Of a stretch of 33,257 nucleotides of DNA, positions 24,808 to 33,257 are shown piece after piece. Numbering within the stretch: position 1 is the first letter of the stretch; each line of letters opens with the position of its first letter. This DNA comes from Terriglobia bacterium. Its GTDB lineage: Bacteria; Acidobacteriota; Terriglobia; 20CM-2-55-15. A program made the position numbers and the translations under genes. The DNA lies in contig DASXLG010000146.1 in the NCBI GenBank assembly GCA_036496425.1, forward strand, positions 1 to 33,257, read 5' to 3'. The notes below the pieces were generated by a model, which saw only the letters and a program-made list of their open reading frames with translations, was not told the origin of the DNA and did not search any database.

Positions 24808-24814
24808 ACAGATG

Positions 24815-24897
24815 TTTAGCCGCAGATGACGCAGATGATGCGGATGGAACGCAAAACAGTCTGTTGGTACGTTCCATCCGCGTCATCTGCGGCTAAA
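24815..24897. repeat. Long imperfect inverted repeat between convergent genes
   Basis: The left arm 24815-24851 starts TTTAGCCGCAGATGACG and ends CGGATGGAACG. The right arm 24870-24897 is its reverse complement except that the left arm carries an extra 9 bases (CAGATGATG) in the middle. An 18-base loop lies between. The arm sequence belongs to a GCCGCAGATGACGCAGATG-like dispersed repeat that I recall from several phyla. It ends 2 bases from the MFS gene stop and starts 8 bases after the DUF4136 stop, so it may also act as a two-way terminator. Confidence 0.8.
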
Positions 24898-24898
24898 C

Positions 24899-28792: not shown

Positions 28793-29416
28793 ATGCTTCA
28801 GCAATCCATGGCCCTTTGGATCAGCCAGTACGGTTATCCGGCGATCTTCTTCATTCTTATCGGCGGTATCGTCGGAGTTCCGGTGCCCGATCAGCTTCTG
28901 TTGGTCATTTCCGGATACCTCGTCTTAACACATGCCTTAAACCTGTTGCCGACCCTTGTGGCAGCGATATTGGGCAGTGTCGTTGGTATCACCTTGAGCT
29001 ATGCACTCGGCCGTGGATCGGGTTCGTACCTTTCGAAAGTGCCGTTTGCCGCCACGCGGCTTCAAACGGCACGCCATTGGTTCGAACGATTTGGCGGCTG
29101 GACTCTGGTTTTTGGTTATTTCATTCCGGGAATCCGGAATTTGATCGGTTTCACGTCCGGGATGATGCGGCTCAAAGTGCGCCATTTTGCGCCTTATGCC
29201 TATGCGGGAGCGACCGTATCGTCCGTGACATGCGTTCTGGCCGGCTATTTTCTCGGCGAGCAAGCGGGCTGGGCACTCGCTTCGGCGAGCCGGCTGGCCG
29301 TTGTTGCGGCTGCCGGCGCCAGTTTGTTTTTGATCCGAAAGGCGATTCGCAATGGAGCCCCGGAAGCTGTGAAGACGACACCGGCCGCAATTGCGATCAG
29401 CGGAAGCCTCGAATAA
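28793..29416 (+). CDS. DedA-family membrane protein (copy 1)
   Basis: The 207-residue protein has the DedA core: QYGYPAIFFILIGGIVGVPV with PVPDQLLLVISGYL, a first re-entrant hairpin VVGITLSYALGRGSGS, and FGYFIPGIRNLIGFTSGMM with the conserved PGxRN arginine. A last TM is RLAVVAAAGASLFLIRKAI. Family members are inner-membrane lipid-carrier translocases (UptA/DedA type) needed for envelope integrity. An in-frame ATG at 28811 is an alternative start. The last 172 bases lie antisense to a second DedA gene, and the overlap covers the final TM helix. Both frames look intact. Confidence 0.9.
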   Translation: MLQQSMALWISQYGYPAIFFILIGGIVGVPVPDQLLLVISGYLVLTHALNLLPTLVAAILGSVVGITLSYALGRGSGSYLSKVPFAATRLQTARHWFERFGGWTLVFGYFIPGIRNLIGFTSGMMRLKVRHFAPYAYAGATVSSVTCVLAGYFLGEQAGWALASASRLAVVAAAGASLFLIRKAIRNGAPEAVKTTPAAIAISGSLE

Positions 29417-29913
29417 TTCCAATGCACGTGGCGTCCGGCGAAGTATCCGAACGTTACGAAACTGGTCGAAGAAATCAAAGCGCCGGCGTACGCGAAACGC
29501 ATGAAGACACGGACACCCAGTTTCGAAGCGCCGGCCACATAGCCCATCAGGTTCCGCACCCCGGGAATGAACGGACCCACCACGAGCACCCAGCGGCCCA
29601 GGTTCTGAAACCAGTGCTGGACGCGTTGAATCTTCTGGTCATCGATCGATAGCCAGCGTCCATATCGCCGTATAACGAAATCACCCGATGTCCTGCCGAG
29701 CACATAACTCACCGTCAGGCCGCCCGCGCTGCCTATTGCCGCGATCGCCAGCGTCGGAAAAAGGCCCAGAACATTTCTAAAAGCCAGATACCCGGAGATG
29801 ACCAGAAGCCATTCATCCGGCACCGGAAGGCCGATGATTCCGAAAATCAGGAGAAAGAACATACCAAAGTAGCCGTAATTGGTAATCCACTGGACGACTG
29901 CGTGTTCCGTCAT
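29245..29913 (-). CDS. DedA-family membrane protein (copy 2)
   Basis: The 222-residue paralogue of the facing gene shares NYGYFGMFFLLIFGIIGLPV with PVPDEWLLVISGYL, GGLTVSYVLGRTSGD, and GPFIPGVRNLMGYVAGASK (PGxRN). The last TM is LPLIAIAAGVVFTASGAPL. A polar tail of about 24 residues (KLAPAAATTASRLAEAS and on) has no counterpart in typical DedA proteins and may reflect read-through into the opposite gene. A ribosome site (GGAAAGG) lies 7 bases ahead of the ATG. The two genes could have arisen by inverted duplication. The PGxRN motif suggests function is kept. Confidence 0.9.
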   Translation of the reverse strand: MTEHAVVQWITNYGYFGMFFLLIFGIIGLPVPDEWLLVISGYLAFRNVLGLFPTLAIAAIGSAGGLTVSYVLGRTSGDFVIRRYGRWLSIDDQKIQRVQHWFQNLGRWVLVVGPFIPGVRNLMGYVAGASKLGVRVFMRFAYAGALISSTSFVTFGYFAGRHVHWNYSRLPLIAIAAGVVFTASGAPLRIAFRIKNKLAPAAATTASRLAEASAQPACSPRK

Positions 29914-29990
29914 TAAACGCCTTTCCGCTTTTGAAGACGTCTAAGTACTTGCAGGCGGAATTCCAATCAAACCACGCGGGAAGATTCGAA

Positions 29991-30081
29991 ACAAAAATGG
30001 GGACAGATCACTTTTCGCGTCAAAATGTGTTTCGTTCGGAAACAACTTTTGACGCGAAAAGTGATCTGTCCCCATTTTTGT
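29991..30081. repeat. Perfect 35-bp inverted repeat (REP/MITE-like hairpin)
   Basis: The arm 29991-30025 (ACAAAAATGGGGACAGATCA onward) is the exact reverse complement of 30047-30081, with no mismatch. The 21-base loop contains its own small stem, GTTTC (30029-30033) with GAAAC (30039-30043). The tips carry ATGGGGACAGATCAC, a sequence I recall from dispersed GGGGACAG/CTGTCCCC palindromes. It lies 77 bases upstream of the divergent DedA start and 20 bases before the secreted-protein start. No transposase is in the window. Confidence 0.95.
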
Positions 30082-30101
30082 GTTAATTTGTGCCCACACT
30101 C

Positions 30102-30851
30102 ATGCGGTTGATGAAGTTCGTTGTTTTTTGCATTGGAATGGCGGGGACCCTGTTCGCACAAGGCCAGCGTGGCGGACGAGGGCAAGCACCCCAAGCGCCG
30201 CGCGCGGCTGCGCCGATCGATTTGACGGGTAATTGGGTTTCGATCGTCACTGAAGACTGGCGCTGGCGCATGGTCACGCCGGCAAAAGGCGATTTCGCGA
30301 GCATACCGACGAATCCCGCCGGCGTTGCCGAAGGTCAGAAATGGGATCCGGCAAAAGACGAGGCAGCTGGCGAGCAGTGCAAATCCTACGGCGCTCCCGC
30401 CATCATGCGCGTGCCGACGCGCTTACATATCACCTGGGATAACGACGCCACTCTGAAAATCGAAACCGACGCCGGCCGACAGACGCGCGTGTTCCATTTT
30501 GGCGAGTACCAGTCTGCTTCCACGGCCCCGTCGCTTCAAGGCAACTCCCGCGCCAATTGGGAAGGCGGCGGCGGGCGACGCGGCGGTCCTCCGGCCGGAG
30601 GTTCGCTCAAAGTCGTGACGACCGGACTCAAACCGGGGTATTTGCGCAAGAATGGATATCCGTACAGTGAGAAAACAACCGTGACGGAATTCTACGATCG
30701 CACCAACGAACCGGCTGGAGATACCTGGCTGATCATAACCACCGTTGTTAACGACCCCGTCTACCTGAATCAGGAATTCATCACGAGCACGCACTTCAAA
30801 AAGGAACCGGATGAAAAGGGCTGGAATCCACAGCCCTGCGCCGCCCGTTAG
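30102..30851 (+). CDS. Secreted LTGNW-type protein, function unknown
   Basis: The protein is about 249 residues from the ATG at 30102. GTG at 30090 and ATG at 30111 are also possible, and none has a visible ribosome site. The signal peptide is FVVFCIGMAGTLFAQ, followed by a low-complexity GQRGGRGQAPQAPRAAAP linker. IDLTGNWVSIVTEDWRWRM marks it as a relative of the LTGVW proteins. Later features are CKSYGAPAIMRVPTRLHITW, LKIETDAGRQTR and YLRKNGYPYSEKTTVTEFYDR. It shows no enzymatic motif. It lies 14 bases upstream of the molybdenum hydroxylase genes, so it may share their transcript. A large hairpin occupies the place where its promoter or leader would be. Confidence 0.78.
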   Translation: MRLMKFVVFCIGMAGTLFAQGQRGGRGQAPQAPRAAAPIDLTGNWVSIVTEDWRWRMVTPAKGDFASIPTNPAGVAEGQKWDPAKDEAAGEQCKSYGAPAIMRVPTRLHITWDNDATLKIETDAGRQTRVFHFGEYQSASTAPSLQGNSRANWEGGGGRRGGPPAGGSLKVVTTGLKPGYLRKNGYPYSEKTTVTEFYDRTNEPAGDTWLIITTVVNDPVYLNQEFITSTHFKKEPDEKGWNPQPCAAR

Positions 30852-31333: not shown

Positions 31334-33257
31334 GTGTATCCAGAAGGAGTTTTCTAAAGACTTCGGGCGCGCTCATCGTCAGCTTCACCATGATGCCGGA
31401 GGACGTCTTTTCGCAGCGGCTCGACGGGGCGAGCAGCAATCAGCTCGATGCCTGGTTGTCGATCAATGCGGACGGCAGCGTGACCGCTTTTACCGGTAAA
31501 TGTGAACTGGGTCACGGTCTCTATACCGCCCAGATGCAACTGGTCGCGGAAGAATTATCAGTTCCTTTCCAGCGCGTGAAGTTGATTCAGTGCGACACGG
31601 CCCTGACGCCGGATCAGGGCACGACCTCCGGAGCCCAATCCCATCCGACCAACTTCAATCAGGGTGCGCTCGCGCTCGCCGGCGCCACCGCCCGTGAAGC
31701 GCTCCTGCAAATGGCATCGGTCCGGCTGGCTGTGCCGGCAGATCAGTTGATCGTGAAGGACGGCGTGATCACTGCCAAATCCGATGCGTCGAAAAAAGTC
31801 AGTTACACCGATTTGATCGGCGATAAGAAGTTCAATCTGACGCTGAACAAAAACGCGAAGCGGAAGAGTCCGGGCGAATGGACGGTTCTCGGCACGCCGG
31901 TGCCGCGCATCGAGATTCCGGCAATGGCTACAGGCGAATTCGAATACGTCCATAACGTTCGTGTGCCGGGCATGCTGTATGGACAAGTGGTACGTCCCCC
32001 GGCGGTCGGCTCGAATGTCATGAATGTCGACGAGAGTTCCGTTTCGGGTCTTCCCGGTGTCGTGAAGGTTGTCGTCAAAAAGAATTTCGTGGGCGTCGTG
32101 GCAGAGAAGCCCTGGCGGGCGATTCAAGCAGCAAACAAGCTGAAGATCACCTGGACTTCCGGGACGGGCCTTCCTAAACAGACCGAGATTCACAATTACC
32201 TGCGAAGCCGGAAGCCCACTCGTGACACCTGGCTGGTGAACTCGAAGGACGTTGACGCCAGGTTTGCCCAGGCCGCCAAGGTCGTCGAGGCGACCTACCT
32301 TTATCCATACCAGATGCACGGTTCGATGGGAACGTCGTGCGCCGTAGCGGACGTCCAGGGTGGTAAAGCGACCGTCTATTCCCCGACGCAGGCGGTTTAT
32401 CCCCTTCGAAGCACGCTCGCGATGCTGCTCGGCATGCAAGCTGAGAATGTCCACGTCATATTCAAAATGGGCGCCGGTTGTTACGGCATTAACGGAGCGG
32501 ATACTGTCTCGTACGATGCCGCGCTGTTGTCTCAAGCTGTCGGGAAACCTGTACGGATTCAACTGACCCGAAAAGACGAAATGGGGTGGGAAAACTACGG
32601 TCTGGCTTTCGTCATCGATCAGCGCGCGGCCCTCGACAAGGACGGCACGATCCTGGCGTGGGATTATGAAGGCTGGTCGCCGACACTCGGCGGACGTCCC
32701 GGAAACAACAGTCCAGGAAACGTCGTCACCGGCTTTCTCGCTGGTTTCCCTCCTGCTCCCTTTGCCGCACGAACACCGGCCCCGGACCCGGCCAATTACG
32801 GTAACAACAGCAATGCGGTCCCATCGTATGTTGCGGGCGCCGTGAACGGCCGCAGCGGCGGCACGGGCGTGATCCGCAGTGAGCGAGTGCTGTCGCACGA
32901 TGTTCCCTCGCCGTTGTTTACCGGACCACTGCGGTCTCCGGCCCGTCTTCAGAACACGTTTGCGCACGAGTCGTTCATAGACGAGATCGCCGCGCAGGCA
33001 AAGGCCGACCCGGTGGAATTCCGGCTCCGCCATCTCAGCGATACCCGTTTGATGGATGTGGTCAAAGGAGCGGCGAAGGCGGCCAACTGGGACACGCGGC
33101 CGTCACCGCGGAATGCCGCTCCTCGCCGGACCGGCACTGTCAGCGGTCGTGGGATTTCCTGCGTCTTGTATGAGGGCGACAACGGCTATTGCTCCGCGGT
33201 CGCCGAGGTCGAAGTGAACCAGGATACGGGGCGCATCGCGGTTAAGCGGCTTGTCAT
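31330..33257 (+). CDS. Molybdopterin-binding subunit of a molybdenum hydroxylase (partial)
   Basis: The gene runs off the right edge; about 642 residues are visible. The start is GTG at 31330, overlapping the previous stop. A Tat signal, SRRSFLKTSGALIVSF, puts the complex in the periplasm. Then come LSINADGSVTAFTGKCELGHG, the hammerhead domain with VRVPGMLYGQVVRPPAV (from ~residue 200), and the cofactor-binding region HVIFKMGAGCYGINGAD with M380. The GCYG(I/H)NGAD form resembles nicotinate dehydrogenase B-type subunits rather than the GGGFGRR form of isoquinoline oxidoreductase. DPVEFRLRHL near the end is typical. It oxidises a carbon centre, probably an N-heterocycle or aldehyde; the substrate is not known. 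A cytochrome c subunit may follow outside the window. Confidence 0.92.
   Translation, partial: MSVSRRSFLKTSGALIVSFTMMPEDVFSQRLDGASSNQLDAWLSINADGSVTAFTGKCELGHGLYTAQMQLVAEELSVPFQRVKLIQCDTALTPDQGTTSGAQSHPTNFNQGALALAGATAREALLQMASVRLAVPADQLIVKDGVITAKSDASKKVSYTDLIGDKKFNLTLNKNAKRKSPGEWTVLGTPVPRIEIPAMATGEFEYVHNVRVPGMLYGQVVRPPAVGSNVMNVDESSVSGLPGVVKVVVKKNFVGVVAEKPWRAIQAANKLKITWTSGTGLPKQTEIHNYLRSRKPTRDTWLVNSKDVDARFAQAAKVVEATYLYPYQMHGSMGTSCAVADVQGGKATVYSPTQAVYPLRSTLAMLLGMQAENVHVIFKMGAGCYGINGADTVSYDAALLSQAVGKPVRIQLTRKDEMGWENYGLAFVIDQRAALDKDGTILAWDYEGWSPTLGGRPGNNSPGNVVTGFLAGFPPAPFAARTPAPDPANYGNNSNAVPSYVAGAVNGRSGGTGVIRSERVLSHDVPSPLFTGPLRSPARLQNTFAHESFIDEIAAQAKADPVEFRLRHLSDTRLMDVVKGAAKAANWDTRPSPRNAAPRRTGTVSGRGISCVLYEGDNGYCSAVAEVEVNQDTGRIAVKRLV

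Follow-up and report, generated by a model that had tools for sequence, protein, structure and literature searches.

A 91-base palindrome with TIRYT-like ends between divergent genes of a soil acidobacterium

The hairpin and its neighbours

The window, that is, the whole stretch of 33,257 nucleotides analysed here, is contig C146 of a soil acidobacterium whose genome is assembled as 6.16 Mb in 407 contigs. It holds, in an intergenic gap, a hairpin of 91 bases at 29991-30081. The gap is bounded by two divergent genes: on the left (29245-29913, - strand) one encoding a VTT-domain (DedA-type) membrane protein according to Pfam, and on the right (30102-30851, + strand) one without a Pfam match, whose product starts with what looks, judging by its residues, like an export signal. 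Downstream of the latter come a gene for a 2Fe-2S protein (Pfam) and a gene that reads as the large subunit of a molybdenum hydroxylase. This last gene, on the + strand, runs past the end of the window, and a listed open reading frame without a Pfam match (31558-33033, - strand) lies antisense to it.

The left arm (29991-30025) and the right arm (30047-30081) are perfect reverse complements over 35 bp and enclose a loop of 21 nt. Both carry a tip of 17 nt, GGGGACAGATCACTTTT, at 29999-30015 on the left and at 30057-30073 (- strand) on the right. Inside the loop, a nested GTTTC/GAAAC stem forms the central stem-loop GTTTCGTTCGGAAAC (30029-30043), which contains the motif GTTTCGTTYSGAAAC, called here the centre; when this stem is included, the arms reach 43 nt, are 95% complementary and stand 5 nt apart. 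Folded as single-stranded DNA, positions 29985-30090 gave -48.1 kcal/mol, against a mean of -12.0 in shuffled sequences (z -12.85, with 0 of 200 shuffles equalling it), and in 20 first-order Markov sequences as long as the window, perfect arms reached 14 at most. The mismatch-free arms and the nested stem that the first-pass annotation had pointed out are therefore exact, and far beyond what chance would produce.

Just one other inverted repeat in the window has arms of at least 13, a perfect repeat of 19 bp (24814-24832 and 24880-24898), which makes it the second longest. It lies between the end of a + strand open reading frame (24807) and the low end of a - strand MFS gene (24899), and is perhaps a bidirectional terminator.

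Rfam returned seven matches to the hairpin at E up to 1, every one under its gathering score. Four of these were to microRNA models, which accept long hairpins, and we rejected all seven. The plasmid and phage collections gave 0 matches at E 1e-5.

The hairpin ends 20 bases before the ATG at 30102, for which, as had been remarked earlier, no ribosome site is visible. Other possible starts of this gene are the GTG at 30090 and the ATG at 30111, and the alignment to its orthologue in G004, a genome of the same genus, starts at 30105. On the other side of the gap, DNA homology along the DedA gene ends at 29923 for G004 and at 29962 for G005. The promoter scan found no sigma-70-like promoter near the hairpin, and the terminator scan found no terminator-like site, with loop and stem limits that are ill-suited to a hairpin of 35 bp.

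Related palindromes in this and other genomes

The tip GGGGACAGATCACTTTT, the centre GTTTCGTTYSGAAAC or both occur at six places of the genome besides the one in the window, seven in all. The exact tip is found in both arms at the window and once in C374; with up to three mismatches it has 16 sites on 13 contigs (the window's two counted), against 2 for the reversed pattern. Nine of these contigs, the window among them, were inspected (C35, C36, C72 and C112 were left out). The repeat is dispersed among them: outside C146 it is paired in C192, C68 (imperfect palindrome) and C22 (short), single in C374 (one arm) and decayed in C251, and visual inspection revealed no palindrome at the three-mismatch sites in C129, C19 and C24. 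The exact centre is present in C68, C146, C192 and C253; we counted exact matches only, because with up to two mismatches there are 71 sites against 24. The five one-mismatch sites of the centre that we inspected were without the tip, the exception being C24:10709, which has GGGACAG alongside.

Aligning the seven places shows that tip and centre are common to them, while the stretches in between have diverged or are absent. None of the six other places is a close copy. Since the best other match by DNA similarity in the genome is a stretch of 31 bp at 90% (C192), and none of 199 other relatives has a match, the palindromes are a small and diverged set, local to one genome at this level of similarity. 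The dispersed palindrome that had been proposed thus exists as a set once the arm copies are counted, and it is far from the single-copy sequence, kept at its site in distant relatives, that had been named as an argument against a mobile element. The recent insertion proposed along with it is doubtful, because we found no near-identical sister. No empty site was found.

Mechanically called reading frames of at least 80 residues overlap six of the seven places. After a Pfam search of ten neighbouring frames, with two starts placed by hand, the copies in C192, C251, C68 and C374 are likely intergenic; these four lie between same-strand genes, and the one in C22 possibly between convergent ones. 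The C192 copy (L006, about 1890-1960) stands 15 bases before the ATG of a frame with the Pfam peptidase domain M13, and the C251 copy (L009, about 1866-1940) stands 21 bases before that of a frame with the peptidase domain M23. The C68 copy (L007, about 1920-2050) is enclosed by an outer palindrome of greater length (ACATCCGGCACGAAAGGGGCCCAA...) and looks as though it had been put into an existing hairpin.

These settings bear on two functions that a hairpin might have at such a site. It could be a cis-regulatory site of the following gene, either an operator or a 5' leader hairpin, given how close it stands to the start codon and how close the C192 and C251 copies stand to ATGs on the other strand. 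Yet the copies adjoin unrelated genes, the scan found no sigma-70-like promoter, and the hairpin is absent upstream of the G004 orthologue, where a gene for an M28-type peptidase ends 22 bases before the start; we give this role little credence. Alternatively, the palindrome could be a bidirectional transcription terminator or an insulator whose resemblance to terminal inverted repeats (TIRs) is secondary. An A-tract, a G+C-rich stem foot and a T-tract occur on both strands (the ends read AAAATGGGGAC and GTCCCCATTTTT) and would halt transcripts coming either way, the arms of several copies continue into A/T tracts outside the tip, and the same-strand and possibly convergent neighbours of the other copies are compatible with termination. 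However, the window's site, between divergent genes and just ahead of a start codon, is the last place to expect a terminator, the scan, within its ill-suited limits, reported none, and the conservation of tip and centre exceeds what a terminator needs, all of which makes this function improbable.

Beyond this genome, the palindrome pattern GGGGACNGNTCAC...GTGANCNGTCCCC was found in 2 of 61 relatives, the genome itself and G001 of the same genus (0/61 for the reversed control), and in 1 of 396 genomes of the phylum, again the genome itself. In the named collection, a scan without reversed control found it in 53 stretches from 37 genomes of several phyla, and 52 of these loci were examined singly (L136 was left out). 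The two palindromes of G001 bear the tip GGGGACAGGTCAC, and their arms are unlike the window's. In G001, L085 and L086 have equal arms with loops in opposite orientation, and their outer flanks are different yet also pair.

We also considered that the conserved core might always be the looped-out part of a smaller hairpin whose stem varies, and rejected this as a general rule: the window's element does not fit, and stems of at least 6 occur in 10 of 42 palindromes, where 1.6 are expected and the highest number in 1000 re-pairings was 7, these ten not being independent because several share one genome. The 42 palindromes derive from 57 inputs (the 53 scan loci, the window, L006, L007 and L008) after dropping those that were shorter than 48 nt or lacked a match on the + strand. 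In the ten (L096, L098, L099, L109, L114, L118, L120, L122, L125 and L141), seven of which come from Coriobacteriia judging by their record titles, a small hairpin with a stem that varies by genome has the GGGGACNGNTCAC core as its loop.

TIRYT genes and their ends

The outer part of the window's repeat carries GGGGACAG at 29999-30006, mirrored at 30066-30073, which fits GGGGWSAS. According to the text of Di Nocera 2013 (PMC3733652), TIRYT genes are flanked by TIRs sharing GGGGWSAS, such TIRs are also dispersed as single, dimeric or grouped copies, and the most sharply defined group of transposases is acidobacterial. As that text describes them, the dispersed TIRs of TIRtrons and TIRYT genes share with the window's element the GGGGWSAS tip, the occurrence as pairs away from the gene, the modest copy number and the acidobacterial carriers. 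They differ from it in that neither the window's TIR sequence nor its GTTTCGTTYSGAAAC centre is among the sequences given in the passages of that paper considered here, and in that we found no autonomous copy with the window's TIR.

Genes of this kind with comparable ends are present in the genus and in the family. In the genus, the TIRYT of G002 is flanked by TIRs TAATTCGGGGACAGACGTATAAATCACC that match at 28/28 positions and include GGGGACAG, the right one standing about 750 bp behind the gene. G004 has TIRs AATTCGGGGTCAGAC... that match at 32/32 with GGGGTCAG, around a gene truncated of its first 44 profile positions, the left TIR overlapping the transposase profile match. In the family, the TIRYT of G008 has TIRs TGGGGACAGTCCCCGAACTC (20/20, including GGGGACAG), and the ends are AGGGACAG in G009 and GGGGACGG/AGGGACGG in G006. 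Counting more broadly, GGGGWSAS lies in both arms of an inverted repeat within 700 bp of the profile matches at 9/30 and 4/30 loci, and the reversed motif at 0/60; the genus locus L180 falls outside this count because its right TIR is beyond the limit.

The genome itself has four TIRYT profile matches, of which those listed are in C15, C133 and C390. The one in C15 has a long frame and the TIR AGGGGGCGCACACCTGAATTCC, and reads NHTH where the HUH motif (NHVH) is expected. C133 has a piece of a TIRYT beside an end resembling that of C15, and C390 has a 3' piece followed by GTGTCTGTCCCCTGAATTTT, a GGGGACAG end, with no visible left end. The agreement of the C390 end with the window's tip is limited to GGGGACAGA, and none of the TIRYTs found in this genome has the complete end GGGGACAGATCACTTTT.

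In four other organisms, TIRs of TIRYT genes resemble palindromes of the same genome. The TIRs of L166 (Atopobiaceae RGIG5826, 34/34) are nearly the left arm of L098, those of L147 (Gammaproteobacteria Ve_Sed_34, in which the gene has one stop) are like L124, those of L162 (Coriobacteriales OH1046) are like L120 and L125, and those of L146 (Aminicenantes) are like L128. In several other genomes, for example at L151, L153, L154, L169 and L170, the TIRs are unlike the palindromes of the same genome. The presence of TIRYTs is not enriched along with palindromes, as 25 of the 37 genomes with palindromes gave a profile match, compared with 49 of the 61 relatives; G001, with its two palindromes, has 0 such matches, and the profile search found no transposase within any of the 53 scan loci.

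The genes found here also allow us to weigh the more familiar palindromes that are associated with tyrosine transposases. Bertels and Rainey reportedly described, in 2011, GTAG REPs/REPINs together with their RAYTs. Such elements, as presented in the text of Nunvar 2010 (PMC2817692), are like the window's in being short dispersed palindromes thought to be moved by a Y1 transposase in trans, and differ from it by the GTAG foot, which the window's element lacks, and by having far more copies. A GTAG- or CGTC-tagged REP or REPIN with a RAYT partner would account for a dispersed palindrome with further copies in the genome; yet no GTAG/GTGG or CGTC tetranucleotide was seen by eye at the foot of the hairpin, the copies are few, and the transposase genes of the genus and the family have GGGG-type TIRs, so that we regard this identity as highly improbable. 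The REP-like character suggested at first, with a tyrosine transposase as partner, thus stands as far as the palindrome belongs to a kind tied to tyrosine transposases, and fails as to the enzymes, which are TIRYTs with GGGGWSAS ends and not those of the GTAG-REP/RAYT system, the set being small (seven places).

Quentin 2018 (PMC6006769) places, in the text we cite, 20 of 26 TIRYT examples in subclass 2.1 of TnpA-REP. The transposases of G006, G008 and G009 have NH[VI]H and YVERNP, which come near the motifs in that paper's table, and may be placed in this subclass by these motifs; the NHTH of C15 departs from them. Around genes of subclass 2.1 those authors found no REP-like hairpins, whereas the TIRs of L162, L165 and L166 are self-complementary by eye.

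A probable stranded pair of transposon ends

The hairpin is quite likely a MITE-like, non-autonomous element in which two TIRs of the TIRYT kind stand back to back, and which has been left stranded between two genes as a remnant. We take it for a pair of transposon ends of a known kind because its tip fits GGGGWSAS and because there are TIRYT genes with matching ends or palindrome-like TIRs. In IS200/IS605 and REP systems the enzyme acts on single-stranded hairpins. By analogy, the tip would be the target of a TIRYT (HUH/Y1 tyrosine transposase) provided in trans, which would recognise it and cut it on single-stranded DNA, and such cutting would spread the TIR pairs; the partner of the window's element would since have been lost. 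Perfect arms in an element with no close sister seem better explained by arm-to-arm copying, which would keep the arms identical, than by a very recent insertion.

The site itself may have had a more eventful past. In G005 two genes come after the DedA gene, one apparently of the DUF1992 type and the other apparently for an M28-type peptidase, and in G004 the peptidase gene precedes the orthologue of the 30102 gene, as described above. Because these two genes occupy the junction in relatives, the palindrome may mark a deletion joint. Peptidase identity to that of G004 is 73% in G001, 72/68% in G005 and 61% in G006; the best match in the window's own genome, a single frame, is made of three pieces of 57, 37 and 46%, for which reason it is probably a paralogue, and the gene seems patchy in the genus, since the matches in G002 and G003 are also weak. 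Gene order appears fluid as well, because the DedA gene of G004 adjoins a transporter-like gene and the peptidase gene of G001 adjoins a similar one (both as read from sequence). We find it rather unlikely that the TIR system deleted a DUF1992/M28 block which would ancestrally have separated the 30102 operon from the DedA gene, with the TIR pair becoming the operon's new 5' region. If this were true, TIRYT ends would act as agents of deletion and rewiring that reshape operons.

The window's element as a non-autonomous pair of TIRs is probably an ordinary member of a known, little-studied kind. With it, a small set from Acidobacteriota joins a little-studied class of miniature elements, and the GGGGACAG palindromes of four other organisms are tied to TIRYT genes with look-alike ends.
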